The position numbers and the translations under genes were made by a program. Below, in pieces: positions 2,304-35,891 of a stretch of 43,474 nt of DNA; position 1 is the first letter of the stretch, and each line of letters begins with the position of its first letter. The notes beneath the pieces are model-generated. The model was not told where the DNA came from and did not search any database. It saw nothing but the letters and a program-made list of their open reading frames with translations. Origin of the DNA: a virus; IMG/VR virus record IMGVR_UViG_3300034198_009761, positions 1 through 43,474 of that record, one strand, 5' to 3'.

Positions 2304-2651
2304 TTACATCCGCGACATGTGCTGATCGAAACGACCCCGAAGTTCACCAATCTCAACACTCAACGCATTCGACTTCACGTCAAGAGCATCAACTGTTATT
2401 GAAATGCGGTTGATCGCTTCACGCATCCCACCACTATTACCACCAAACTCGCGAGACAAAGACACCTTCAACGTCTCAAGCTCGTTCAAAATCGCGTCAC
2501 GCTCACTTTCAGCATGAGCCATCTGTATTTCAAGATCCGTACCACGTTTATCAATACCCGCGCGGATCCTCCACGCACCAGCAATCACAGCCCCTACAAT
2601 GACCAGAATCTCTAAAACGTTTCGCGCCTGGTTCAACGCATCGGGGTCCAT
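2304..2651 (-). CDS. small membrane protein with coiled coil
   Basis: The product has 115 residues. The ATG at 2651 has GGAG five bases upstream. Residues about 12-30 form one hydrophobic transmembrane segment (EILVIVGAVIAGAWRI). Most of the remainder is a charged helical region with heptad-like spacing, predicted here as a coiled coil. The layout resembles small one-TM phage proteins annotated as DUF2746-like or holin-like, but it is far from the endolysin, so a lysis role is not assumed. It is the last gene of the late operon, just before the convergent terminator. Confidence 0.7.
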   Translation of the reverse strand: MDPDALNQARNVLEILVIVGAVIAGAWRIRAGIDKRGTDLEIQMAHAESERDAILNELETLKVSLSREFGGNSGGMREAINRISITVDALDVKSNALSVEIGELRGRFDQHMSRM

Positions 2652-2715: not shown

Positions 2716-3648
2716 CTACTTTGTAGGTATCCATGTGGTTCCAGACCAGTATTTAGGTGTTGCGGAAACCCACGCTGAACCATTCCAGCGGAACAGGAAA
2801 CCACGAACCCACGTTGAACCATTCCATTGAAAAACGTCAGGACCGTTACCGTCCACATTCCACAAAACGACACGGCTACCAGAAACCAAGCCGCGGGTAT
2901 TCCACGTAGCGACACGCGTATTACTGCGACCGCTCAGAACATTCCACGAAACGACCCGTGTATTACTCGTGGACGTGTTGATGTTCCACGATACGGTACG
3001 TGTGTTACTCGTTGACGCTTTCACGTTCCACGAAGCGTTTCTGTTGTTTGTGAGAGAAGCAAACGTGTTCCATGACGCGACGCGTGGAGAAACAACGGTC
3101 AGAATAAGAGCCGCGACGTTCCATGACGCAACACGACTGTTAGACAACCCAGCTAGCGCATTCCACGACGCGACACGGCTATTAGTGGCGCTAGAAAGAA
3201 CACTCCATGACGCGTTGCGTGTATTACTTGCTGCCGTGTTGACGTTCCACGATACGGTACGTGTGTTACTCGTTGACGCTTTCACGTTCCACGATGCTAT
3301 GCGTGTGTTGTTGAGCGCCGCGTTTGTATTCCACGAAGCGACCCGTGTACCTGCGACGGAAGCAGCCGTATTCCACGAAACCGTCCGCGCGTTACTGACA
3401 CCAACGTTGACATTCCACGACGCGACACGACTGTTTACCGCAGCAGTTAAGACGTTCCACGAAGCAACTCGTGTGTTGCTTGACGCGGCGTTCGTATTCC
3501 ACAAAACACCGCGGGTACTATCAACAGCACTTGTCGTATTCCATGTAGCGGTACGAGTATCGTTGACGCTAGTGAGCGTGATTGCGGCAACGTTCGCGGT
3601 ACGCTGAACAATGATTGAAGCGTTATAGCCCCTACCCGCGATTGCCAT
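2716..3648 (-). CDS. tandem 14-residue-repeat protein, probable tail or fibre protein
   Basis: The 310-residue product is built almost entirely of seventeen tandem units of about 14 residues. The consensus is N-T-R-V-A-S-W-N-V-x4-S (residues 29-271). The C-terminus carries three Trp-rich motifs of the WNGSxWV type, common at the ends of phage tail and fibre proteins. The conserved Trp and Asn at fixed spacing suggest a solenoid or beta-stacked rod. The gene follows the DNRLRE-like tail gene by 4 bases and has AAGGTGG upstream inside that gene. Repeat 11 is irregular (18 residues) and repeat 12 is shortened. A structural or adhesive role is inferred. Confidence 0.75.
   Translation of the reverse strand: MAIAGRGYNASIIVQRTANVAAITLTSVNDTRTATWNTTSAVDSTRGVLWNTNAASSNTRVASWNVLTAAVNSRVASWNVNVGVSNARTVSWNTAASVAGTRVASWNTNAALNNTRIASWNVKASTSNTRTVSWNVNTAASNTRNASWSVLSSATNSRVASWNALAGLSNSRVASWNVAALILTVVSPRVASWNTFASLTNNRNASWNVKASTSNTRTVSWNINTSTSNTRVVSWNVLSGRSNTRVATWNTRGLVSGSRVVLWNVDGNGPDVFQWNGSTWVRGFLFRWNGSAWVSATPKYWSGTTWIPTK
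2836..3564 (-). repeat. 17 x ~42-bp coding tandem repeats
   Basis: These are the DNA units behind the 14-residue repeats. Each is about 42 bp, kept in frame and diverged except at the Arg, Ser/Thr and Trp-Asn positions. Within them 2975-3033 and 3236-3294 are 59-bp direct copies with a single mismatch, 261 bp apart, indicating a recent internal duplication or gene conversion. Confidence 0.85.
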
Positions 3649-3652
3649 CAGG

Positions 3653-5350
3653 TCACCACCTTGAAGCGCGGGTTACGGCAGCGTTGGACACGAGAGCAGA
3701 CGGTGGGCCGCCAGCAACCGCCTGTATAATGGTAAGGGCCGTAGTTAGGACATTTTTACCGCTAGTCAAACCGATTGAGTCAGATGACAAAACTCCCGCG
3801 TTAGGGGTTTTGTATTGCATCTGCAGAACACTTTGGCCTGACCCGCCAAAAGCAACTTGCGGGTCGGTAGCGATTGGCTTTGTCCACGTTCCGCTGCTAC
3901 CAAAAGTGCCAGAAGTCGCGGCAGAAAGAGCCATCACCATGTCGCCACTCTGGGCTACCGTGACAGATGGAATGGACGCGCTAGACACAGAACCGGCAGT
4001 GAAATTTCCGAGGGTCGTCGGTGTTGATGACGTTGTGTAGCCCACTCCCGGAGATGTGGTAAACGTGGTTGGTGTAACACTGTCTGCCCCAGTTAACGCA
4101 AAAAATTCAAAAGAGCACGCATTTGCCCCCGCATCGCCCATAAAAAAGTATGAAGAACCAGTTACCCATTTAACGGACCACACCGTCATTCTGATTCCAC
4201 CCGTATAAGTTTCACCCGTTGCTGGATCGCCATAAAAATCTGCAACCCTAGTTAAAGCAGGACCAACATCTGCTCGCGCACCGCTTGGATAGCCGGGGGC
4301 GTAGTAAACACCACCGAGAAACAAAGAAACACCACTAGTGCCGTTGTCACCTGTTTCGTCATGACTCTGCACTCCGACGATAACAACAAGATCCCCGTTT
4401 TGTGGCGCAACGTTAAAAGTTGGGGCACCAACACTAAGAAGACCGCTGAAATTTGAATCCCAACCGTTACCAGTATTTGTTGAGCCATACCCGCGAATAC
4501 TAATTTTCGGCACAGAAGGTTCAGTGTAAGTGACTGTTAGGGCAGGTCGTTCTGCTGGAGTTGTATACCCCGGTGAGGGAATTCCGATAGTGTTTTGGGA
4601 TTCTGAACCAAGAGTAGGCGCGTAGGCGCTGTGAGTAAAAGCCAAACCGAAATAGGAACCCGCTTTAGAAGTAATCTCATCAACAAGAACGGTCCCTGTA
4701 TTTGAAAGTGAGTAGCGAGTAAAGTTGCTCATAGTGCTAGTAGGCCTACTTGCGGCAAGTGTCAGCGCACCCATCGCAGATGAACTAAGCCACTGCATTT
4801 GATCTATGGTTACCGGCCCCGGTGAAGTCACGCCCGCAACAAAAGTTGTTGAAGTGAATGTTAAAGAGGTGGCAGATTCAACCGAAGCAACCGTGTACGT
4901 TCCATTATTCGCCGCCCTACTGCCATAAATGTACTCTCCTGAATAAAGAAACTGATCGCCAACTGAATACCGATGAGGAGAATCTGTCGTCACAGTTACG
5001 ACGTTTCCGCTTTTAGTTGCAGACAAAACAATGACAGTGGGTTTTCCAGAATACAGACGAGCCTGAAAAACAGGAGTGGACTGTACTAAAAACCCAGAAC
5101 TAGGCCCATAGTTGGTAAATGCAAATGTGGCGGAAGTGATTGTTGAGCCAGCAGGGATGCCCGACAAATCAAACCAGAGGAAAAATTGTTGTGCAGTCCA
5201 CAGGCCGCTGTCAGGGTCAGACCCGTATCCAGTATACGTTGCAGTTCGAATATCAGTTCTTGTAGCGCTACCTGAATTAGCAACAGCAAATGATGCATTT
5301 TCTGCAGTATAAAGTCCTCCGTATTGAGGAACAATGACCGCTGTAGGCAT
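3653..5350 (-). CDS. minor tail protein with DNRLRE/CBM96-like domain
   Basis: The product has 565 residues. The ATG at 5350 overlaps the upstream stop (ATGA). The first 280 residues look like a DNRLRE-type carbohydrate-binding fold: a segment around FDLSGIPAGSTITSATF and a closing RPALTVTYTEP. This fold is interrupted at residues 105-175 by a small beta module found in other tail proteins here. The second half (about 285-555) is another Gly/Ser/Thr-rich beta domain. Its position in the second fibre block supports a virion adhesin or glycan-binding role. The enzymatic class is unknown and no catalytic motif is seen. Confidence 0.7.
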   Translation of the reverse strand: MPTAVIVPQYGGLYTAENASFAVANSGSATRTDIRTATYTGYGSDPDSGLWTAQQFFLWFDLSGIPAGSTITSATFAFTNYGPSSGFLVQSTPVFQARLYSGKPTVIVLSATKSGNVVTVTTDSPHRYSVGDQFLYSGEYIYGSRAANNGTYTVASVESATSLTFTSTTFVAGVTSPGPVTIDQMQWLSSSAMGALTLAASRPTSTMSNFTRYSLSNTGTVLVDEITSKAGSYFGLAFTHSAYAPTLGSESQNTIGIPSPGYTTPAERPALTVTYTEPSVPKISIRGYGSTNTGNGWDSNFSGLLSVGAPTFNVAPQNGDLVVIVGVQSHDETGDNGTSGVSLFLGGVYYAPGYPSGARADVGPALTRVADFYGDPATGETYTGGIRMTVWSVKWVTGSSYFFMGDAGANACSFEFFALTGADSVTPTTFTTSPGVGYTTSSTPTTLGNFTAGSVSSASIPSVTVAQSGDMVMALSAATSGTFGSSGTWTKPIATDPQVAFGGSGQSVLQMQYKTPNAGVLSSDSIGLTSGKNVLTTALTIIQAVAGGPPSALVSNAAVTRASRW

Positions 5351-7366: not shown

Positions 7367-10300
7367 CTAAGCTGTTTCTAGTGCGGTGAGTCGTGCGTCC
7401 AAGTTCTGGACAGACGCTACCAGAGGAGCGATGAACTCTTCGTAACGCAACGACTGAATCGAATCCGGGTCGTCAACATCGCCCATACTCCAACCACCCC
7501 AGTCAGTAGAAATAGCATCCAGCGACTCTTTCACTTGCTGGGCGATAAAACCGGTATGTGTACGAACACCGGTCTTAGTGACCATGACACGCTCACCGTC
7601 AGCGTCAAAAGTTAAGCTTCCGTCAGCGTTTCTGGCCTGCATTTTACCCGCATCAGAAAAACGGTACTTCACCGGAACAAGACTACGAATAAAGCCAATA
7701 CCAAGAGGATTAGTGTCGTCGATCGTCACAATATCTGTCTTCACGCGGCTATCGGACGTACTAATTGTCCCGTTGGTAGCAAAAATAGTGTTCCAACGAA
7801 ACGATGTGTTACCAATGCTCCAGCCAGCGTTTACGCTCGGAACCCAGTCCACGCTGCAAATGTTGTAACTAAACGTCGTTGCGTTTACCACAATCTGATT
7901 TGATGTATTGCTTTGATTGCCTCGAAGATAAAGACCAGTATTAGCGTCTGGTCGCACCACTCCGCCACCGGCAATAAAAGTGCCTCCAGCGGTGATACTC
8001 CCAGCAGCAGAAATATTCACCCACCGCTTAGTTGACGTCCCCAAGTTGCTGACATTATCGACATCGGGAACAAGATCGTTACTGGTATCGACGGTAATAC
8101 CGTAAGCGTTACCGTTCGGTCGAATACTGACAAAACCACCAGGACCGGCACCTATGTAAGTATTACGGGTACCTGTTGAAGGCTGCATCATGATGTAGTA
8201 GCCATCCCAGTCCATCAAACCACTGTAGCCAGTGCTGAGAGAGACAGTGGTTGTTCCACCTGCCGCGGATGGCGTGTTTGCTCTTGCCCAGTTACCAAGA
8301 ATTAACTGTGTTGAAAATGTATCCGTCGGCTGTATTTCGATATGTGGTGTTGATCCGTAAGGAACAAGAGTGGTACTTGAAGAACCAGTACCTCTACCGT
8401 AAAGAGTAATAGATGTAGACGTAGAAATACTGCCCGTTGTCGGTGACACAAGTTGTGTGCTGATAACAGCTGTTCCTGTGAGGCTTAAAAAAGCCGACTG
8501 GATTAGGCCGCTAATCTCACCGGAAGTGCCGGTGTAAAGAGATATTTGTCCAGACCCCACTTGATCATCCATAACGACACGCGAACCAGAAGCGGCCGTT
8601 CTAATAATACCGCCGGTAATCGTTGAACTAGAGATCGTTGAACTGGAAATCGTTGCGCTAGTAATCGCTGAACTGCTGACAGTGCCGGAAAAAGTAGCAG
8701 CCCCAGACGTATCAATAGAGAACGTCTGAATAGGAAGAAAAGGCGTAGCCGTCGCCGCTTTATAGGCGCGAATCCCATTACTGTCCATGATGAGACCAGC
8801 AACGTTAGCCGTGCCGTTTACGCCACTAACCGACTTAATCGTGTTACCAACAATGATGTTGCCGGTAAACGTCGCAGCGTTCACCGTCCCACTAAACGTC
8901 GCAGTACCGCTCGCATTCAAATCAACAACAGTCGCAGCGCCGTTAAAAACCCGCAAACCATTAGAATCCAAAACGATACGAGAACCAGTAGCGGCAGACT
9001 GAATCGTAAAAATACCACCCGAAGTTAACCTGAACGTCTCCAACGCCCCAGTAAACCCACTCAAACCAGCCGCAGTCATCTGCACCCGCGACCCAATACC
9101 CTGAGCTGTACCAGCCGCGCCAGCAGTCACCATCACACCAGACGACACCGTAAACACGCGCGCAGACGGAACAGTGTTCACTGTCCACGTACTGTTATTC
9201 GCCGTGCTAGAACCAGCAATCACCACCTGCTGGGCAACCGTCAACCCGTGATCGCCGTCAACAGTGACCGTCGCAATACCACCACTCGCTGCGATAGACG
9301 TAATCGCATTCGACACAGTTCCGGCGTTCGTCGTAATCGAACCACCAGAAATGATCTGATCAGCAGTCAACACCCCCGAAGTCAACTTCAACACCGACAA
9401 GTCAGCGATCTCGTTGTCCTTCAACGCAGTCGGAACACTAGACACAATCGTCGAAGCCGCAGAAGCATTACCCGTATTGTCATACGACACAAACTGCACG
9501 TAATACGTTGAACCCTGCACCAAAGGCGAACCAGTCACAGGATCCTTCGTCACAAGGAACTGAAACGCACCCGAATACCTCGCAGCATACGTAGACGCAG
9601 AATAAGTGCCAGAAGACGACGCAACAAACACGTCCGTATACGCGTAATCCGAAGGCTGCGCGCCACCAGCATTCAGCTTGCCGTCCCACGAAACCTGCAA
9701 CGTACCCAACTTAGGCACAATAACCGGCGCAGAAGGCTGCCCAGGAGCCACACTGTCAGCAGCCGTCAAATGCGTCGTCGTCGTCGACCACGAAGAGCTA
9801 TTACCGTACCCATCCGTGACCTTCGCCTGCACCGACAAATACGTGCCAGACTTCACGCCAAGAAAAGACACCGTCGGGGAAACAGAAGACGCCGTCGTCC
9901 AATCACTGACACGCATCACCGTACCCACCGCGCCAGCAGCAACACCAAGATCGTTATTGAACGTCATCGTAGAACCAGAAGCCGTCAACAACTTGAAACT
10001 AAAATTATTGGCAGCAGTTGAACCCGTCACCACAACAAAATTGCCGCCCGTCATGCCGTGAGCAGCAGTCGTCGTCAACGTCACCACACCAGCAGACACC
10101 GTGATACTTTGAATGTTCTTCGTCCCGTAAATAGACGGATCCTCATACCGCCACCGCACCGAATACAGGGACGGCGCGACCAGAACAGAACCATCCGTAT
10201 ACGTCGACGGTGGGGTCACAACAGCCTTCACACTCGACACCGCCGTACCCCGCGGGGTAGACGTCGTATCGTACTCGTCCGCGTTATACGGAGCAGACGT

Positions 10301-10495
10301 CACCGTAGGCGCAACAGGCAACCCCGGAACAAGCGACGTCGAAGGCACCCAATCAGTACCATCAAAAACCGGAACCGTGCCCCCAGGCAAAATACCAACC
10401 GGAAACCCAACAACATCCGTCAAATTATGCTTATGCGCCCCCGGCGGCGTGTTCTTCGGGGGCGGGATCCGCCCACCGACAGACGACTCTGTCAT
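7367..10495 (-). CDS. tail fibre with C-terminal S74 self-cleaving chaperone
   Basis: The product has 1042 residues. The ATG at 10495 overlaps the HTH gene stop (ATGA). N-terminal residues 1-60 are Pro/Gly-rich and probably attach to the tail. Residues 128-195 and 398-465 are two copies of a small beta module shared with other tail proteins here. Residues about 251-355 look like a fibronectin-III domain. Residues 470-900 are repetitive beta fibre. From residue 914 the SDSRVKTDI motif starts a peptidase S74 intramolecular chaperone domain. In that family a Ser-Lys dyad (here Ser914 and Lys919) self-cleaves after trimer folding. The C-terminal helix is the usual S74 ending. Confidence 0.9.
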   Translation of the reverse strand: MTESSVGGRIPPPKNTPPGAHKHNLTDVVGFPVGILPGGTVPVFDGTDWVPSTSLVPGLPVAPTVTSAPYNADEYDTTSTPRGTAVSSVKAVVTPPSTYTDGSVLVAPSLYSVRWRYEDPSIYGTKNIQSITVSAGVVTLTTTAAHGMTGGNFVVVTGSTAANNFSFKLLTASGSTMTFNNDLGVAAGAVGTVMRVSDWTTASSVSPTVSFLGVKSGTYLSVQAKVTDGYGNSSSWSTTTTHLTAADSVAPGQPSAPVIVPKLGTLQVSWDGKLNAGGAQPSDYAYTDVFVASSSGTYSASTYAARYSGAFQFLVTKDPVTGSPLVQGSTYYVQFVSYDNTGNASAASTIVSSVPTALKDNEIADLSVLKLTSGVLTADQIISGGSITTNAGTVSNAITSIAASGGIATVTVDGDHGLTVAQQVVIAGSSTANNSTWTVNTVPSARVFTVSSGVMVTAGAAGTAQGIGSRVQMTAAGLSGFTGALETFRLTSGGIFTIQSAATGSRIVLDSNGLRVFNGAATVVDLNASGTATFSGTVNAATFTGNIIVGNTIKSVSGVNGTANVAGLIMDSNGIRAYKAATATPFLPIQTFSIDTSGAATFSGTVSSSAITSATISSSTISSSTITGGIIRTAASGSRVVMDDQVGSGQISLYTGTSGEISGLIQSAFLSLTGTAVISTQLVSPTTGSISTSTSITLYGRGTGSSSTTLVPYGSTPHIEIQPTDTFSTQLILGNWARANTPSAAGGTTTVSLSTGYSGLMDWDGYYIMMQPSTGTRNTYIGAGPGGFVSIRPNGNAYGITVDTSNDLVPDVDNVSNLGTSTKRWVNISAAGSITAGGTFIAGGGVVRPDANTGLYLRGNQSNTSNQIVVNATTFSYNICSVDWVPSVNAGWSIGNTSFRWNTIFATNGTISTSDSRVKTDIVTIDDTNPLGIGFIRSLVPVKYRFSDAGKMQARNADGSLTFDADGERVMVTKTGVRTHTGFIAQQVKESLDAISTDWGGWSMGDVDDPDSIQSLRYEEFIAPLVASVQNLDARLTALETA

Positions 10496-23900: not shown

Positions 23901-24157
23901 AGCAAAGACGACAACGTACCAACAGCGCCCTGCGCAACCATAGAAGCCGACGTAATCGTCAACGTATTCACCGTAGGAACAGACACAATGTTCCACAAAC
24001 CATTATTAGCCGCAGTACCACCAGCAATAAGAACCTGCTGGCCCACAATCAACCCATGCGAAGGAACCGTCACCGTCGCAGTACCAGCAGACACCGTGAC
24101 ACTAGTAATACTGATCGTCTTCGTAGTGATCTTCGCAGAAACAACCTTATCGGCCAT
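20918..24157 (-). CDS. multi-domain minor tail protein / beta-helix fibre
   Basis: The product has 1079 residues. The ATG overlaps the tape measure stop (ATGA). Residues 1-225 resemble a tail-attachment domain and contain a shared beta module at 14-85. Residues 226-290 form a Gly linker and an Ala/Thr/Asn-rich coiled coil. From 290 a pectate-lyase-like beta-helix begins (DSADSTVAMTAWFQAFLDA then IVPIGRFQV). After about 650 comes a WDGSSYQ motif and a C-terminal beta-sandwich that may bind glycans. Being first after the tape measure fits a distal-tail or adhesin role. Base composition changes near the linker, suggesting that the C-terminal part was exchanged. Confidence 0.75.
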   Translation of the reverse strand: MADKVVSAKITTKTISITSVTVSAGTATVTVPSHGLIVGQQVLIAGGTAANNGLWNIVSVPTVNTLTITSASMVAQGAVGTLSSLLELNDDSTYRVADGSFENQATQHRRKTATNPFIEGEYVVSSLRGNITEQVNVYVKSDSQYVTRAAVKLITDALEQPTFTFIASVDNWKTTWTCYSSDYTLSSSKPLLHSSMVQVQIQLLRDPVEVVGFAGTGSAPVVGVQVIAGTGSGSGGGGDAAAALAAANAAQATANTAVTNAATALSTATTALSTANTANTAATAVTYLSASSYAGYDSADSTVAMTAWFQAFLDAKAQNATLIVPIGRFQVSAAFNTTATSGTLAASSAAGATITVASTAGLPAAGPFKIILEPNTTSGVSEVVTVTSYAGLVLTLAARTAGTAWEAGKAHGATYTVARSLPMQSGTTVKGIVPMRGEATPCELQVFGSHYFAGFGANGNVQGVFCEDVGFWSSENATTTVARAFMFPGSAATFKDSIFSRCAWKWFTQTKFLAGRSRMTQCYFNNGFSYNTAGTRLTPSNEGLVHFGGSDNFLEHIYIDTWFQGIPSDQSIVKIDGFAESTVDFMYITPGPGRPIEVTGYGDGLVLNFLVNGLGEHNTRQSLGISPASFGTAVPPTLTAAQQTSLRGWLYEKTDTGVVSRWDGSSYQTIVDNTTLVTGSPFATRASLTSALAAANTRRWATVSDATDLSGIRSYYSDGVRWRGPHFDSPGPAPSPASGYLGADYGVWFHDIRGVVQVNSMSLRSVAQFDSAFPGSVRVENATVQIGNLSLWSSGSTTPTDIYVNNGAVELGHFSKDGAPAVPITTLVGTGRVATSPATLGGVAGQLLRLNNSFVPVPDDFLHAALHGPGGTDRTVIRAGHESANRAETIDRYSFNGQTSWPSSGTTADVRFTYFTSNINKTINRFRTFSGTTAYAAGTGGPHQTRLGLYTVAANGDLTLVARTSQGLRWTTTNAVQEDALDTTGGYPASYDLLYGARYAIGIIYNVNGATSATAPDVMRYQGSGPNSTARSLLMSYSPRMSGVLAAQTDLPTTLTAATVTNYDTLFYVGLYNSADSGV

Positions 24158-27100
24158 CAGAAACTAGTCTCCTTCGCGGCACTACCAGGCGACACCAAAC
24201 GAGCATGCGCCACCTTCTTACGCAACTCATCCACCATCTTATTCGGATCATTCGCCTTCACACTGATATTGCCAGTGAACTGAGTCCGATTGTCATAGTG
24301 ATACGTGTTGTTATTCGTCACCGGAGAAGAATAATGAGCCGTCCGCGCCGCATGAATCTCACCACTCGGAACACTACGAAGCATCGGCTTCTTACCCTTA
24401 GACTTCGACCCGCCACCAAGCTTCTTACGCAAATCAGCAGTAGCAACGTGATGATTCTTCTCAAGGCTTTTCTTCTTACGCTCAGCCTCAAGCTGCTTCA
24501 ACATCGCGTCCATCTTCTTCTTAGCATCCGCGCGCTCACGCTCAATCTGCTCCTTTGCGCGCTTAGCATCCGAAGCCATCTGATCCTTCATGCGCTTAAA
24601 ATCATCCTCCATCCGCAGCTGCTTCCGGCGTTCATCAGCAGACGGAGCACCAGCCGCGGGACCCATCAAACGCGCAATCGTATCCGCCATGAAACTACTA
24701 CCCGTAGAGTTCAGCGGAATAACAGCCTCAGGACCGGCCTCACCAATAATCGCCTCTTGAGCGCCCAACGCAATAACACCTTGGGCGTGACGGCCACGAT
24801 CAGCAGGAGGAGGCGCAGGAGGAGTAGGCTTGTTGTCCTGCCCGCGCTGATTACCGCCGTGCTCCCCGCCTCCAGCATCACTCGGAGACTTGCCACTAAA
24901 AATGTCAGAAGACAAACCATACGGAGACAAATACGTATCAAGGAACGACTTCAAATCACCAGAAGCAGAAGACCAAATCGTTCGCAGATTCTCCGAAAAC
25001 TTCCCACGAATCGACAAAGGCATAGCCGCAATAGAGTTAGTGAACTGCTTCACGACACCCTCAACACCGCCACCAACCTCGTCACCCATACGAACCAAAT
25101 CTTCCTGCGCCCGAGTACGCGACTTCTTAAGATCCTCGTCCATCTGAGTCAACGTCAACAAATACTGACGCTTCGCGCGCGCCAAAGTCTTCTTATAGTC
25201 AGTCTCGCCACGCGCCATTGACTTCACGAAATCAGTAAAACTACGGCCCATAGACTTCTGAAAATCAGTAGCACCACGCGCAAGAGACTTCTGAAAATCA
25301 ACAGCGCCATCACGCATCGACGTAGCAAAATCAGCACGAGCATTCTTCTGAGACGTAGCAAAATCCGCACTAGAATCTTTCAAGCCCTGCTGAAAATCCT
25401 CAGTCATGTGACGGAAATCTTTACCCTGCTCAACAAGACCCTGAGTCGCATCCGCACGCTGAGTCGCAGCGCCATTCAATCCAGCAACAACCGAAGGATC
25501 ACTCTGAGCGTCCTGCAAAATACGCTCCAGCTGCTGCGCGTTACTCGCATCAGACAACTTCAACTGGTCGATAACAGCCTGACTCAAACCAAGCTTCTTT
25601 GCCTTCGCAATATTCTCAGTTTGTTTCAAAAGAGCAGCATTCTGCTCCTTCAAGTTCGTCAACAGTGACCGCGCATCCCACACCTGCTGCGCCTGAATCC
25701 GCTTATACGGGTCATAAATGGAAGCCGCCTGATCTTCCATCATCCGACGAACACTCTTGTTGAAATCACGGATAGAACGAAGCCGCTGCTTATTGAACTC
25801 TTCTTGGCTGCGAGCCGCGTTCTTATTAAAGTCACGCTCAGCACGTTCACGCGACGTACGATTATCTTCCTCCGCGCGAGCAACACCCAGATTGTAGTCA
25901 TCAGTAGCACGCTTCTTAGACGTGTTGAAATCTTCCGACGCACGCGCGCGACCCAGCGTGTAATCCTCTTTAGCGTCACTCTTAGACGTATTAAAGCTTT
26001 GAGCCATACGCCGTTTGTTAGTGGCAACGTCCTCATCGGAACGCTTCAACTGCAAATTCAAATCCTTGTAGGCTTGAACAAACGCCCGCATAAAAGAAAG
26101 ACGCTCGCCAAACGCAGCCTGCTCACCAGCAATAGTCTTCTGCCGGTCCTGCTCATCCGCCTGCGTATCGTAAGGGCCCTGCGCTTGCGCCTGACGGCCC
26201 GCCAACATCGCGGCACCCGTGCGCTGACTCATCGTCTGCGCGCTCTGCTGAACCTGCTGAGTGCTCTGCAAACCCGCAATAGCAGTATTAATCGCCGTAC
26301 GACGCAAAGACGTCATAGACTCACCACTACGCTGCGCCTGCAACGCAAGAATCCCCTGATTCACGTCACCAGAACGACTAACAGCACTCTGCGCAAGCGA
26401 CGTACCCGCTACCTGCAAATTCTTAGGAGTCGCATCCTTCAAATAAGTAGCAACAGCAGAAGCACCATAAGACGCCCGACCGCCCGTCCGCGCCGCCCGA
26501 CCAACACCATACAAAGACTCAACAAGGTCACCACCACTTTTAGTGATGCCCTTCGTGATCTTATCGAACTGGTCCTGCAATTTTTGAGCAGACTTCTCCG
26601 CTTCGGGCGTACTAGCTATCTTGAAATAGTCCGGCTTATCAAGGTCATAAGGCTTGATACCGGGGCCTTGCGGTGTCAACGCAGTAAACGCCTTCGACAA
26701 AGGACTTTCCTTGTTTTGACGCATCAACGCGCCAAAATCTTTACTATCAAAATTGACATCACGCGAGTCAACACCAAGCTGGCGACCAAGAATGTCTTGA
26801 GCGGCTTGCCGACCCTTATCGTCAGGTTTTAGTGCGGCAGCCTTGTCGTAAACTTTCTTCAAATCAGAAAGCTGCGACAGCGTACCAGCGCCCTCACCAT
26901 ACTGATCAGATTTCGTTACAGAGTTACGGGTAATCGTAGCTTGAATACCAGCAATAATGTCTTCAGTGCCCTGCGTAGCGGTTGCTCGCATACCGTATTT
27001 TTGGACACCTACAGTATCTTCTCCTCCCATCCTTTCTTTTATAAATTCGCCTAAAGCGCCAAAATTTCCGTCCTTAACGTCGCTAACCATCTTGCCAGCG

Positions 27101-29484
27101 CCCTGAAAGCCAGAAAAGTTAGGCATATTGCTGTACGTATCTCCAGCAGCGCCGACAGCGTCGCCAATAACTCCGTCAGGGTTTTTTAAGCCGTCTTTCA
27201 GGAGACGCAAAACTTCGTCAACAGTCGTGCCAGGACTTTGAAACTTTGAATCAGTAGCAATCTGATTCGTCACATCCATACCAACGCGAGCAATAGCCTC
27301 AGGAGCCGCGTTCGGACCAAGCATCAACTGAGCTTGCGTCGCAATACTTTTAGCGTCAGTAGAATTAGCAGTAAAAGCACGTGTGTAGCCAGGAGACGCC
27401 GCGTTTTCACGCTCCGCAGCCGTCATCTCAAACGCATCTTTAAGAGTCTTATTACCAGTTTGAATCTCTTTAGTCGTCTTCGTTAACGCCTCACTAAAAG
27501 TAACCAGACCTTTGCTTGTCAGGTCAGCCGCAGCAGCAAACTCGTTAAACTTCCCATACGCATCTTTAGAAGCGTCCAAACCAGTGTTGATACGGTCCGT
27601 GGACTGGTTACCTTGATCGTTTAAGTAACTTGCGCCAGCAAGAGCGCCACCAATAAGCGCCATCTGACCAAGACCACCAAGCCCACCAGGGAACTTACTA
27701 GCAGCAGCGCCGCCCACAGCCAAACCAGCTTTTGCAGTTGCCTGAGCCGTCAAAAGACTAGCTCTCGTAACAGCTTTTGCAAACTGCATCGTCGAACCCT
27801 CAGCAGTCAAAAACGCTTTAGACGCAGACGCTGTCGTTGTCGTAAGATTCGCAACCGCAGTCTTAAAATTAAGCGCAGACGCATCTGCCTTAAACTGCGT
27901 GCCAACACCAGTCATACCAGCACGGAAAGCCTGACCAGCGGTAGACGTAGGCGAAGACTGACCCATCGCATTAGAAATAGACGATGACTGAACATTTGTC
28001 GCCGTCGTCGCCGAGTTCATTACACCGCGAAAAGTTGTCTTAGCTATCTGACGCAAACTAGGACGCTTCGGGGCAGGCGGTTTCGTCACGCCCATAAACC
28101 CAGCCGCCTTACCCAAACTACCCGCAACACCGCCAACATTTGAAGTGCCAGTCGCGTTCATTTGGGTAGCGCTATTCATGAAGTTACCGCCAAAGTTTTT
28201 CAACCCGCGGTACGCCATAAGGCCAAGAGCGCCAGTAGACGCCATACCAAACGCGTTCATGCCAAGACCAGCAGCCGTCGACACAACAGGCGCAATCTTC
28301 CCAGCAGTCTGAGCTTGGCTGCTTTCAGCCAACTTCGCCACCCCACCAGCAGCAGCGTTAGCGCCCTCCAAAACCTTACCCAGCCAGTCCAAATACGGCT
28401 TACCCGCAGACGCCACCGTCTGACTCAACGTCTCACCAAGAATCTTCGCCTGCGCATTCACACCGCTCATAGCAGACTCAGCGCCCTTAGCAGTAGACCC
28501 CCCAGAAAACTCCTTAGACGACGACTCCACCACATCACGCAAATTGCCCTGACTCGAAATCGCACGCAAAGAACGAACCGTACGCGTCGAATCAAAACCC
28601 AAACCCTCAAGAGAACGCTGCAACTCAGGCGAATTCTTCTTAATCGCCTCAGTAAACCGAAGCAACACCTCAGTCGGATCCTGCTTAAACATGTCCTTCA
28701 ACGAAGCCGAAGAAACACCCAAAACACTCGCATACTCCTTCAATTCAGGAGTACCATCACGCACCGAACGCTGCATATCCAACAACACCTTGTTGAACGC
28801 GTTAGCGCCCGCATACCCATCCTCACCCAAACGCGCAGCAGCAGCAGACAAACCCATCACAGCCGTCTGCGACATCCCCACGCTTGAGGCAACCGGAGCA
28901 AGAGCCTTTGCAAACGAAAGCGTCCCCTCAACAGAAGCACCAAACTTCTTAGAAACACCCGTTAGCGAATCACCAAACTTCTCCAACGAAGACTCAGAAT
29001 TACCAAACACACGACCCAGTGACAGCAACTCTTTACCCAAAGCAGCGCCATCAACACCGTTCGCCTTACCAAGATTAGCGAACGCCTTACCCAGTTTGGC
29101 AATCGACTCCTCAGCCGTCACACCCGAAGACTGCAACGTCTGAACAATACGAACAGCCTCCCCCATACCCCCAGGGATAGACCGAGCCAACTTCAACGTC
29201 GTATTTTCAAGCTTCTGAAAATTCTGGCCCGTTACAGCAGCCGTCGCCGCAATCCCCGACATTGCCTCCTGATACGCGGCAGCCTGAGCAACAGCAACCT
29301 TATTAGCACCAGTCAACGCAGTCGTACGAGACACCAAAGCCAACGTCACCACATTCAGTCGACCAATCTGGCCAACCAAACCATCAGTAACCTTCGCAGC
29401 CTCCGTCGACTGCTGAATCATTTGACTCAACGAAGCGCCAAGGTTACCCCCAGCATTAAAATCAATAGTGACCTGCTCATTCAT
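24157..29484 (-). CDS. tail tape measure protein
   Basis: The 1775-residue product is the longest gene in the window and follows the tail chaperones. The N-terminus resembles the TP901-type tape measure core (a MSGIAATAAVTGQNFQKLEN region). Several hydrophobic helices lie between about 380 and 630. Two blocks of 11-residue coiled-coil repeats follow (25735-26007 and 25080-25407). The hallmark IIGEAGPEAVIPL is near residue 1580. A Lys/Arg-rich helical C-terminus ends the protein. At about 0.15 nm per residue the tail would be roughly 265 nm long (inference). The start has GGATCC-type SD just upstream and overlaps the chaperone frame. Confidence 0.92.
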   Translation of the reverse strand: MNEQVTIDFNAGGNLGASLSQMIQQSTEAAKVTDGLVGQIGRLNVVTLALVSRTTALTGANKVAVAQAAAYQEAMSGIAATAAVTGQNFQKLENTTLKLARSIPGGMGEAVRIVQTLQSSGVTAEESIAKLGKAFANLGKANGVDGAALGKELLSLGRVFGNSESSLEKFGDSLTGVSKKFGASVEGTLSFAKALAPVASSVGMSQTAVMGLSAAAARLGEDGYAGANAFNKVLLDMQRSVRDGTPELKEYASVLGVSSASLKDMFKQDPTEVLLRFTEAIKKNSPELQRSLEGLGFDSTRTVRSLRAISSQGNLRDVVESSSKEFSGGSTAKGAESAMSGVNAQAKILGETLSQTVASAGKPYLDWLGKVLEGANAAAGGVAKLAESSQAQTAGKIAPVVSTAAGLGMNAFGMASTGALGLMAYRGLKNFGGNFMNSATQMNATGTSNVGGVAGSLGKAAGFMGVTKPPAPKRPSLRQIAKTTFRGVMNSATTATNVQSSSISNAMGQSSPTSTAGQAFRAGMTGVGTQFKADASALNFKTAVANLTTTTASASKAFLTAEGSTMQFAKAVTRASLLTAQATAKAGLAVGGAAASKFPGGLGGLGQMALIGGALAGASYLNDQGNQSTDRINTGLDASKDAYGKFNEFAAAADLTSKGLVTFSEALTKTTKEIQTGNKTLKDAFEMTAAERENAASPGYTRAFTANSTDAKSIATQAQLMLGPNAAPEAIARVGMDVTNQIATDSKFQSPGTTVDEVLRLLKDGLKNPDGVIGDAVGAAGDTYSNMPNFSGFQGAGKMVSDVKDGNFGALGEFIKERMGGEDTVGVQKYGMRATATQGTEDIIAGIQATITRNSVTKSDQYGEGAGTLSQLSDLKKVYDKAAALKPDDKGRQAAQDILGRQLGVDSRDVNFDSKDFGALMRQNKESPLSKAFTALTPQGPGIKPYDLDKPDYFKIASTPEAEKSAQKLQDQFDKITKGITKSGGDLVESLYGVGRAARTGGRASYGASAVATYLKDATPKNLQVAGTSLAQSAVSRSGDVNQGILALQAQRSGESMTSLRRTAINTAIAGLQSTQQVQQSAQTMSQRTGAAMLAGRQAQAQGPYDTQADEQDRQKTIAGEQAAFGERLSFMRAFVQAYKDLNLQLKRSDEDVATNKRRMAQSFNTSKSDAKEDYTLGRARASEDFNTSKKRATDDYNLGVARAEEDNRTSRERAERDFNKNAARSQEEFNKQRLRSIRDFNKSVRRMMEDQAASIYDPYKRIQAQQVWDARSLLTNLKEQNAALLKQTENIAKAKKLGLSQAVIDQLKLSDASNAQQLERILQDAQSDPSVVAGLNGAATQRADATQGLVEQGKDFRHMTEDFQQGLKDSSADFATSQKNARADFATSMRDGAVDFQKSLARGATDFQKSMGRSFTDFVKSMARGETDYKKTLARAKRQYLLTLTQMDEDLKKSRTRAQEDLVRMGDEVGGGVEGVVKQFTNSIAAMPLSIRGKFSENLRTIWSSASGDLKSFLDTYLSPYGLSSDIFSGKSPSDAGGGEHGGNQRGQDNKPTPPAPPPADRGRHAQGVIALGAQEAIIGEAGPEAVIPLNSTGSSFMADTIARLMGPAAGAPSADERRKQLRMEDDFKRMKDQMASDAKRAKEQIERERADAKKKMDAMLKQLEAERKKKSLEKNHHVATADLRKKLGGGSKSKGKKPMLRSVPSGEIHAARTAHYSSPVTNNNTYHYDNRTQFTGNISVKANDPNKMVDELRKKVAHARLVSPGSAAKETSF
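25080..25407 (-). repeat. hendecad repeat block 2 in tape measure
   Basis: About ten consecutive 11-residue units start at MTEDFQQGLKD. Each has Asp-Phe or Asp-Tyr at positions 4-5 and Lys-Ser or Thr-Ser around positions 7-8 (for example GATDFQKSMGR, SFTDFVKSMAR). Eleven-residue spacing fits a nearly straight or right-handed coiled coil. Confidence 0.8.
25735..26007 (-). repeat. hendecad repeat block 1 in tape measure
   Basis: Eight or nine consecutive 11-residue units run from MAQSFNTSKSD to MMEDQ (for example ASEDFNTSKKR, ATDDYNLGVAR, AERDFNKNAAR). The DNA units are 33 bp and clearly diverged. This block and block 2 are separated by about 110 residues of ordinary helical sequence. Confidence 0.8.
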
Positions 29485-30316: not shown

Positions 30317-31360
30317 TCAGACAGTAACCGGACCAACAACAGCACGAGCACCCGAAGTACCAGCAGCGTTCACAGCCTCAACCGCGAAGTAGTACGCCTG
30401 ACCAGTAGTAAGACCAGACGAGATACGAGCAGTCGTACCGGAAACAGTGACACTCGAAGTCAGTGCAGTGCTACCAAACACGATCGTTCCAGAAACAGCA
30501 CTCGCGTTAGCAACCGACAAAGTCACCGTCAGAGCAGGGCTAGTACCTGAAATTGCAGTAACCACAGCGTTAGTACCAATACCAGTACCCGAAACAATCT
30601 GACCAACCGCAATCGTTCCCGAAGCGATAGCCGAAGTCAGGATCGTAGACTGGCCCGAAGTACCCGTCGCAGTTGCCGAAGCACCCGAAGCGACCTGCGC
30701 AGCAGCACCACCAGCAGTGGTCTGGTAAACCTTGTACGGCGTAGTCGCATTGAGCCCACCAGCTCCAAGGAACGCAGGAGCAGTCCAGTCCAGAATCGCA
30801 ATACCGTTGGCTTCCTTGTAAGCGTTACCAAGAAGAATCAGCGACGGAACACCAGCGACCGAAACAACGCCAGCGTTCTCAACAGGCACGTCAAGAGCAC
30901 CCATCACGTCAAAAGTCTGAACAGTGTTCGACGTCATCGCAGACGCCTTACGCTGCGCCACAGTAATCGGCCAAACCTCAACCGTTTGACCAGCAGCAGG
31001 CGACTTATCCGCGTTAGTGCCACCAAAACGAGAAATCAGGAAATACCCGATAGTTCCCTTCGACATGGCATTCCACGCAGTATCGGCAGTGTTATCGCGG
31101 TAGAACGTAGCCGAAAGAGTACCCTGAGTGGTACCAATAATCTGACGTTCAAACAGTGAATCCAAAGCAGGAGTCGGAATCATGTTACCGGCCTGCGACG
31201 CGTCAATCTGCACCACAAACGGAGTAATGTTCGTCGCCGCAGCAAGCTCAGTGGAAGTAACAGACACACTGTTAGCATTAATGTTCGCCGCAGTATAACC
31301 CGCGGGCGCAACCGTAGTGAACCCAATGTACGAGTTCTGGTTCGGAATGATCTTAGGCAT
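30317..31360 (-). CDS. major tail (tube) protein with Ig/FN3-like C-terminus
   Basis: The product has 347 residues. The ATG at 31360 has AGGAGG four bases away, one of the strongest sites here and consistent with high expression. Residues 1-195 are the tube domain (ISRFGGTNADKS and AGQTVEVWPITVAQRKAS are typical tail-tube segments). From about 196 an FN3/Ig-like domain begins and ends in AYYFAVEAVNAAGTSG. This domain is split at residues 229-297 by a small beta module almost matching one in the major capsid protein. It lies between the tail terminator and chaperone genes. Confidence 0.88.
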   Translation of the reverse strand: MPKIIPNQNSYIGFTTVAPAGYTAANINANSVSVTSTELAAATNITPFVVQIDASQAGNMIPTPALDSLFERQIIGTTQGTLSATFYRDNTADTAWNAMSKGTIGYFLISRFGGTNADKSPAAGQTVEVWPITVAQRKASAMTSNTVQTFDVMGALDVPVENAGVVSVAGVPSLILLGNAYKEANGIAILDWTAPAFLGAGGLNATTPYKVYQTTAGGAAAQVASGASATATGTSGQSTILTSAIASGTIAVGQIVSGTGIGTNAVVTAISGTSPALTVTLSVANASAVSGTIVFGSTALTSSVTVSGTTARISSGLTTGQAYYFAVEAVNAAGTSGARAVVGPVTV

Positions 31361-34673: not shown

Positions 34674-35891
34674 TTACGCAACAGCGCTGCTAAGGAAATA
34701 CCCCAAGTCCGGAGCAACAACCTTCATGTCATAAGTCATTTCAGCCTCAATACGGTCCGAAGCAATGTTCTCCATACGGAACCGCTTCACCTTGATGCCC
34801 TGACCGTTACCACCAAGATATCCGTTCCACGTAAACGTATAACCGGCAGAAGGAGTCATCAGCGACGGACCCGAAGGAGCATACGCAAACAGCACAGACT
34901 TCGAGTTCGAAATGAAATCGAAACCGACAGTACCAAACGTCAACGTACCCGAAGAAATCGCAGCCGAAGTGTTAGCCGACAGAGTAACCGAAGTACCCGA
35001 AACGGCAGCAACGGTAGTACCCGCGGCAACACCAGTACCCGAAACCGGAGTACCAACAATGATACGAGTATCAGCAGCACCAAGAGTCACCGCAGTAGAA
35101 CCCGAAGACGCCGAACCAACCGCAGTAAACACAGTGTTCACAGAAGCCTGAACACCAGCATCCGGGAACTGAGCAGGCGAACCGAAATCAGTAGCACCAG
35201 ACACACCCGCAGCAGTCGCATACGACGTGTACAGTTCATCCACATCAAACAGAGTCGCAATCAGATCCTCCGTAACAATACCCTTCTGGGTGTACTTGAT
35301 ACGGTCAATAATGTCCGGGTGCTGCTTCAAACCCTTCATAACATCCGCGCCAAGAACGCAAATGTTCGGCTTAAAACCAGTCAACTTACGAAACGCCACA
35401 ACAATGTCAGCAACATCGCTAATCGGATCCGAACCAGCGTCAGACCACTTCACAAAGTCAGTGGTACCAACCTTGTCAGTAGCCCAGACGCCAGTCTTGA
35501 AATAAGCAGCGTTCCAGTCAATATCACGCTGAAGCAGCAACTGGTTCGTAATGAACTCAGTAGCATCCCGATCAAGGTTGAAGTTCGAATCAGCGTTCGC
35601 GCGCAACTGGTCATCAATATCCTTGTGGATACCGTACACATGCGCGAAATACTGATCCGTGGTCAGGTTCCAACCAGAACCCGGAGTCTCAGTACCAGGA
35701 GCACGACGCTTAGCGTCAGTACGACGCCAATCCGCCTTGCTGTACTTCCAGTACAGATCAGACTGCTTAGAAACAGGGACCTTGGGGAAAACCTTATCCG
35801 CAAGGTAGGTCGATGCCGACTGAAGATACGCAATGCTGACGTTAGTTAACGGAGCATTGACGTGAAGGTCGGACTGAGCGGGACTGGGCAT
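34674..35891 (-). CDS. major capsid protein with inserted beta module
   Basis: The product has 405 residues. The start has AAGGA about seven bases upstream. N-terminal to middle segments (ADKVFPKVPVSKQSDLYWKY, IHKDIDDQLRANADSNFNLD) and the C-terminal RFRMENIASDRIEAEMTYDM are typical of HK97-fold major capsid proteins of this actinophage type. Residues 257-321 are an extra Gly/Ser/Thr/Val-rich module nearly matching one in the major tail protein and probably exposed on the capsid surface. Flanking genes (decoration and scaffold upstream, PKD protein downstream) support the call. Confidence 0.9.
   Translation of the reverse strand: MPSPAQSDLHVNAPLTNVSIAYLQSASTYLADKVFPKVPVSKQSDLYWKYSKADWRRTDAKRRAPGTETPGSGWNLTTDQYFAHVYGIHKDIDDQLRANADSNFNLDRDATEFITNQLLLQRDIDWNAAYFKTGVWATDKVGTTDFVKWSDAGSDPISDVADIVVAFRKLTGFKPNICVLGADVMKGLKQHPDIIDRIKYTQKGIVTEDLIATLFDVDELYTSYATAAGVSGATDFGSPAQFPDAGVQASVNTVFTAVGSASSGSTAVTLGAADTRIIVGTPVSGTGVAAGTTVAAVSGTSVTLSANTSAAISSGTLTFGTVGFDFISNSKSVLFAYAPSGPSLMTPSAGYTFTWNGYLGGNGQGIKVKRFRMENIASDRIEAEMTYDMKVVAPDLGYFLSSAVA

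Follow-up and report, generated by a model that had tools for sequence, protein, structure and literature searches.

The window analysed here, positions 1 to 43,474 (43,474 nt) of the IMG/VR virus record IMGVR_UViG_3300034198_009761, encodes behind its tail genes a protein made up nearly entirely of 17 tryptophan-centred units with a step of 14 residues. The array is conserved at the protein level, and arrays with the same unit and the same 17-residue joint recur in other phages. With a probability of about 0.5, the protein is a surface component of a tailed-phage virion, forming a beta-strand rod with a core of Trp and the residues at positions -2 and +2 from it, a length set by recombination of units, a joint and a W-x-G-x-x-W tip. 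The unit recurs in many unrelated phages and there probably forms a surface rod of the virion; rods of tandem repeats are a common feature of phage particles.

The repeat gene and its product

The gene and its parts, read from the open reading frame (ORF) listing, the translation, the Trp positions and the unit table, are as follows.

3656-3662, minus strand: Shine-Dalgarno-like AAGGTGG, 7 nt ahead of the ATG, within the end of the upstream gene
2716-3648, minus strand: repeat protein gene, 310 aa, ATG start
3559-3648, minus strand: N-terminal 30 residues preceding the first clear unit
2842-3558, minus strand: 17-unit array, consensus [TS]-R-x-[AV]-[ST]-W-N-[VT], step 14
3070-3123, minus strand: the single 17-residue step (joint), WNVAALILTVVSPRVASW, with a length and pattern common to other arrays
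3244-3294, minus strand: 51-nt block, first copy, identical to 2983-3033
2983-3033, minus strand: 51-nt block, second copy, 261 nt from the first
2719-2829, minus strand: C-terminal segment carrying three W-[NS]-G-[ST]-x-W-[VI] motifs

Tryptophan occupies residues 36, 50, 64 and so on to 176, and then 193 to 263, which confirms the seventeen-unit array of the original prediction. The spacing, which had been called strict, consists of 15 steps of 14 residues and one of 17 (176 to 193). At a lag of 14 the protein matches itself at 109 residues, compared with at most 55 for the best lag (5 to 44) in each of 2000 shuffles, a periodicity well above what chance would give. The window has 10 occurrences of three TGGAAY spaced 42 nt apart, and 100 window shuffles gave none. 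The fixed Arg and Trp-Asn positions were also borne out, with Arg at -4 in 17/17 units (using five different codons) and Asn at +1 in 16/17; Ser is found at -1 in 13/17. The protein is rich in Ser, Thr, Asn and Ala. Its N-terminal segment terminates in L-T-S-V, comparable to the T-T-x-V found ahead of many arrays when array starts were compared.

The region first assigned to the repeat, 2836-3564, spans the array and extends into the beginning of the first C-terminal motif; the whole gene is longer, and its minus strand had not been given. Two of the three WNGSxWV motifs predicted after the array are exact (W275/W280 and W288/W293), while the third is WSGTTWI (W301/W306). A tblastn search with the last 46 residues retrieved 62 phage records, mostly from Mycobacterium, Rhodobacter and Microbacterium phages and partly annotated as minor tail protein, with a best E of only 0.02.

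Differences between units amount to 0.67 at synonymous sites and 0.37 at non-synonymous sites. Because of these values, and because the invariant Arg is written in five codons, the array is judged to be old and held at the protein level. The identity of the two 51-nt blocks indicates recent exchange or duplication within the array, and larger imperfect direct repeats show the same. On the plus strand, a 212-aa antisense frame (2969-3607) is open opposite the array and has its own F-H-[DE]-x-x-x-R-V-L-L repeat; it is probably a by-product of the codon pattern.

Genomic setting

The window is a virus record with a tail module on the minus strand. The genes of orientation are listed below.

34674-35891, minus strand: capsid protein
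30317-31360, minus strand: tail tube protein
24157-29484, minus strand: tape measure protein
7367-10495, minus strand: fibre with S74 chaperone
3653-5350, minus strand: 565-aa protein, directly upstream of the repeat gene, with a sub-threshold DNRLRE match in its N-terminal part
2304-2651, minus strand: 115-aa protein, after the repeat gene, its N-terminal stretch hydrophobic and the remainder polar

The tape measure gene is followed by genes for large proteins and then by the fibre gene. Small genes and the 565-aa protein gene lie between this fibre and the repeat gene, which starts 4 nt past the stop codon of the 565-aa protein gene and is the last but one of the tail module. The 115-aa protein, for which Pfam and PHROG searches gave no convincing family match, is possibly holin- or spanin-like. 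The only close relative by repeat protein and upstream gene was contig IMGVR_UViG_3300032327_000488, identical over the 13,350 nt compared.

The 565-aa protein ends in VTRASRW directly before its stop codon, resembling the start of a repeat unit. The idea that the two adjacent genes are a split form of fused proteins such as those of loci L243 or L246 was dropped; a shared upstream domain was unsupported by phmmer, hhalign (probability 0.3%) and blastp (E 0.074).

Family searches

The repeat protein matched 0 Pfam and NCBIfam families at E 0.1 or better and no PDB sequence, and the repeat profile gave one chance match only (E 0.27) among PDB sequences. Thus, the earlier view that the unit belongs to no named repeat family holds for Pfam and NCBIfam, but the unit recurs in phages and is touched by part of PHROG 6079. 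This family, annotated 'tail protein' and 605 positions long, matches the repeat protein at E 4.4e-6 over 102 positions (best stretch 57-158). Its profile stretch of about 43-209 matches most arrays of the 14-residue W-N kind, including that of the window. The PHROG entry is an annotation that comes with no described role for the repeat. The term phrog 6079 was absent from the open-licence PMC literature searched, and titles and abstract starts of open-licence PMC papers held no description of the 14-residue unit. As judged by these comparisons, the unit is unnamed yet not singular, being a recurrent phage array.

A tblastn search of phages with the whole repeat protein gave no match at 1e-5, and 18 records when E values up to 10 were allowed. 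Vibrio phage F86 alone reached E 2e-4, and the arrays of the gp15 proteins were found through this match.

Relatives and the shared joint

Relatives were gathered with DNA patterns encoding W or WN every 42 nt, and arrays sharing the unit were picked by eye. The resulting alignment, A1, comprised the window and 15 arrays from other records. A profile built without the window scored the window at 139.8 bits, compared with at most 46.2 in 100 Trp-keeping shuffles and at most 76.1 in 100 strict shuffles, in which Trp is kept together with the next residue where this is N, D, S or H. The gp15 proteins of Vibrio phages KVP40 and F86 scored 95.7 and 137.9 bits respectively (41.4 and 51.5 in shuffles). 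Loci L118, L250, L270, L173 and L107 likewise scored above their own shuffles. A Desulfofustis phage protein in which Leu replaces Trp reached 14.0 bits (0.4 in shuffles). This protein (OP947158.1, 31110-33392; L362, 3819-6101) has repeats of the form S-Y-D-[LI]-x-L-[ND]-V, a version of the unit that lacks W, and its annotation as 'capsid protein' is doubtful.

Among 15,751 distinct ORFs in 382 loci, at least 54 had a profile match with an E of 1e-3 or lower, and at least 38 of these exceeded their own 40 shuffles by 10 bits. Some of the 38 are weak rows that were not relied on, such as antisense frames in L243 and L246 and short ORFs from a Fischerella genome (L376 and L377). Passing ORFs of 60 bits or more came from at least 24 records: the window's identical twin, KVP40, F86 and 21 further IMG/VR contigs, 15 of which supplied the alignment and so match by construction; L117, L118, L107, L250, L270 and L248 lie outside it. 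Such arrays, gp15 of KVP40 and F86 among them, are carried by at least 23 records besides the window and its twin.

Of the 117 genome stretches among the W-pattern matches listed, one array was counted, L173. Among genomes from the phylum of a Limnobacter, 4/398 matched, all weakly, and among those from the phylum of a Salinibacterium 0/396 matched, an empty result that shows nothing without a positive control. One of the four weak matches, L378 (bacterial genome G418, minus-strand ORF), has a W-less S-x-D-[IV]-R-x-x-[VI]-x-x-x-[VI] 14-residue repeat, which may be a distant version of the W-N unit.

The 26 core ORFs contain 424 steps of 14 residues and 23 of 17. In the 17-residue steps, Leu is found at +6 in 15/23 and Val or Ile at +9 in 19/23, compared with Leu at +6 in 25/424 ordinary steps. 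The joint of the window has Ile at +6 and Val at +9, and so shares the hydrophobic +6 with Val/Ile +9, Leu being the commoner +6 residue. Joints occur in 13/26 core ORFs, with one to three per ORF; the exceptions to the pattern are three joints in L248, and one joint in L052 that lies ahead of its array. Such a common irregularity would be a sign of common origin rather than of chance convergence on Trp spacing. Together with the shuffle controls, it argues that the arrays form a single repeat superfamily, which occurs by itself or after other domains.

Architectures of the arrays

Unit number differs widely between the phages carrying such arrays. In the window, L082, L045, L107, L118 and L270 the array is preceded by a short N-terminus. 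Longer sequence, about 170-600 residues, stands ahead of it in L042/L069, L243, L246, L290, L314, L102, L049, L052, L121, L250, L078 and L007; L007 includes a metallophosphoesterase. These lengths are minimal, since some ORFs are cut by contig ends.

In KVP40 and F86, W-centred units at 14-residue steps, as in the window, follow the PHROG 227 domain of gp15, the tail sheath stabilizer. In these two phages the array extends a neck protein, whereas in the window it makes up nearly the whole protein. As the array in KVP40 follows the gp15 tail domain, the unit occurs in a known virion protein. The T4 counterpart of gp15 is hexameric. The record of Vibrio phage 1.081.O labels its gp15 array (MG592456.1, 238041-238571) as CRISPR spacers, which probably arose as an artefact of the tandem DNA repeats.

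The superfamily, the fold of which is unsolved, might tentatively be seen as a kit of 14-residue rungs and a 17-residue joint, often with a T-T-x-V start, from which neck, fibre and enzyme-bearing proteins obtain rods of chosen length. Naming the unit, which has neither a Pfam/NCBIfam model nor a sequence relative of solved structure, would provide an annotation for phage virion proteins of a recurring class and link the KVP40 gp15 extension with tail proteins of uncultivated phages. The arrays also offer a clean natural test of structure predictors on near-perfect repeats.

Predicted fold

Mean hydrophobicity is high at unit positions -2, +2 and +6, and the hydrophobic -2 and +2 share one alternating face with Trp at 0. 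When Trp was excluded, 18/23 arrays showed stronger power at periods 2.0-2.3 than at 3.5; the opposite trend was seen in L049, L007, L118, L270 and L173. For the window alone, power was low at period 2.0 (12) and high only at 2.3 (157). Pooled power was 76 at 102.9 degrees and 135 at 180 degrees, and thus the 3-4 hydrophobic spacing of heptads was not found.

Structure prediction as a monomer, a check proposed earlier, gave an all-beta fold at low confidence. AlphaFold2 with A1 drew the window protein mostly as 11-residue strands and 3-residue turns (pLDDT just 65.3, pTM 0.66), and strands were again obtained for L290 with six relatives in an alignment that left out the window (pLDDT 60.6, pTM 0.60). 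According to one study (PMC11795689), AlphaFold2 tends to draw beta-solenoids for repeats. Nevertheless, the sequence pattern and the two low-confidence models point to beta strands.

Foldseek searches of PDB and BFVD with the window model yielded no match at E 0.001 or better. Flat parallel beta-helices such as those of SufB/SufD resemble the low-confidence models of the window (Z 19.3, rmsd 3.2, 232 aligned) and of L290 (Z 16.6, rmsd 4.4, 235 aligned) but show no sequence relation to them (about 9% identity), and the resemblance may stem from the habit of AlphaFold2. A two-unit coil, suggested by these matches, gained no support from unit similarity: similarity of units i+2 exceeded that of i+1 in just 7/20 arrays, and units at distance 1 to 6 were equally similar (means 0.40-0.43 over 20 arrays).

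The proposed rod and alternative explanations

The repeat protein would most likely belong to the tail-tip or side-fibre apparatus, and its rod body would be built from one strand and a turn per 14 residues, with a core packed by Trp 0 and the hydrophobic -2 and +2; units gained, lost or copied through recombination would set rod length. The 17-residue variant unit would act as a joint, and the short C-terminal W-x-G-x-x-W stretch as an exposed tip. The rod is favoured by the tail-module position, the PHROG 6079 match, the profile score, the occurrence in gp15, the joint, the beta periodicity, the all-beta models and the 51-nt identity. Counting against it are the low pLDDT, the AlphaFold2 bias, the low power of the window at 2.0, the unit similarity and the coverage of PHROG 6079 (102/605).

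A somewhat unlikely alternative is an interwoven oligomeric shaft, in which several chains are wound together and each unit contributes a strand from every chain to a common fibre. Triple beta-spirals are shafts of this type, and trimers are frequent among phage fibres. A further such shaft used for comparison is the beta-bracelet fibre of Orsay virus. The equal similarity of units at distance 1-6 is what equivalent units would show, as opposed to units paired into a two-unit coil, but the array also follows gp15 in KVP40, the counterpart of which in T4 forms hexamers. In an oligomeric shaft the single-chain model would be wrong in detail, and the protein would still be a rod.

The original prediction had offered a solenoid rod or a glycan-binding array. 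The first gains from the alternating hydrophobicity, the all-beta models and the differences in unit number, with model confidence low, and is the better supported of the two, albeit in part. The second, in which exposed, regularly spaced Trp-Asn pairs would bind repeated host-surface sugars, is improbable. Trp commonly stacks on sugars, the gene has a tail location and some related arrays follow other domains. No positive evidence for binding emerged, however: no Pfam or NCBIfam binding domain matches, Leu stands in place of Trp in the Desulfofustis protein, and a buried Trp core fits better than a binding face because Trp shares the alternating face with the hydrophobic -2 and +2. A flexible low-complexity linker with no stable fold, although compatible with the Ser/Thr/Asn/Ala-rich composition and the over-folding of repeats by AlphaFold2 (PMC11795689), is very improbable, as a fixed 14-residue Trp step and a fixed joint common to distant phages would not be expected.

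Other repeat classes in phage proteins differ from the array of the window. The BACON domains of crAss-like phages (PMC6949934) are likewise tandem repeats in a phage protein, but are whole domains of a known family instead of 14-residue units. The S-A-N-W-N-S-x-Y fibre repeats (L094, L264, L109, L306 and L308) also have Trp at 14-residue steps, but their hydrophobic spacing is 4-3-4-3, like two heptads and unlike the window unit. Against the repeat profile, this class did not rise above strict shuffles in 5/5 cases and was set aside. The S-A-N-W-N-S-x-Y-T-x-V repeat is frequent in large phage fibre-like ORFs.
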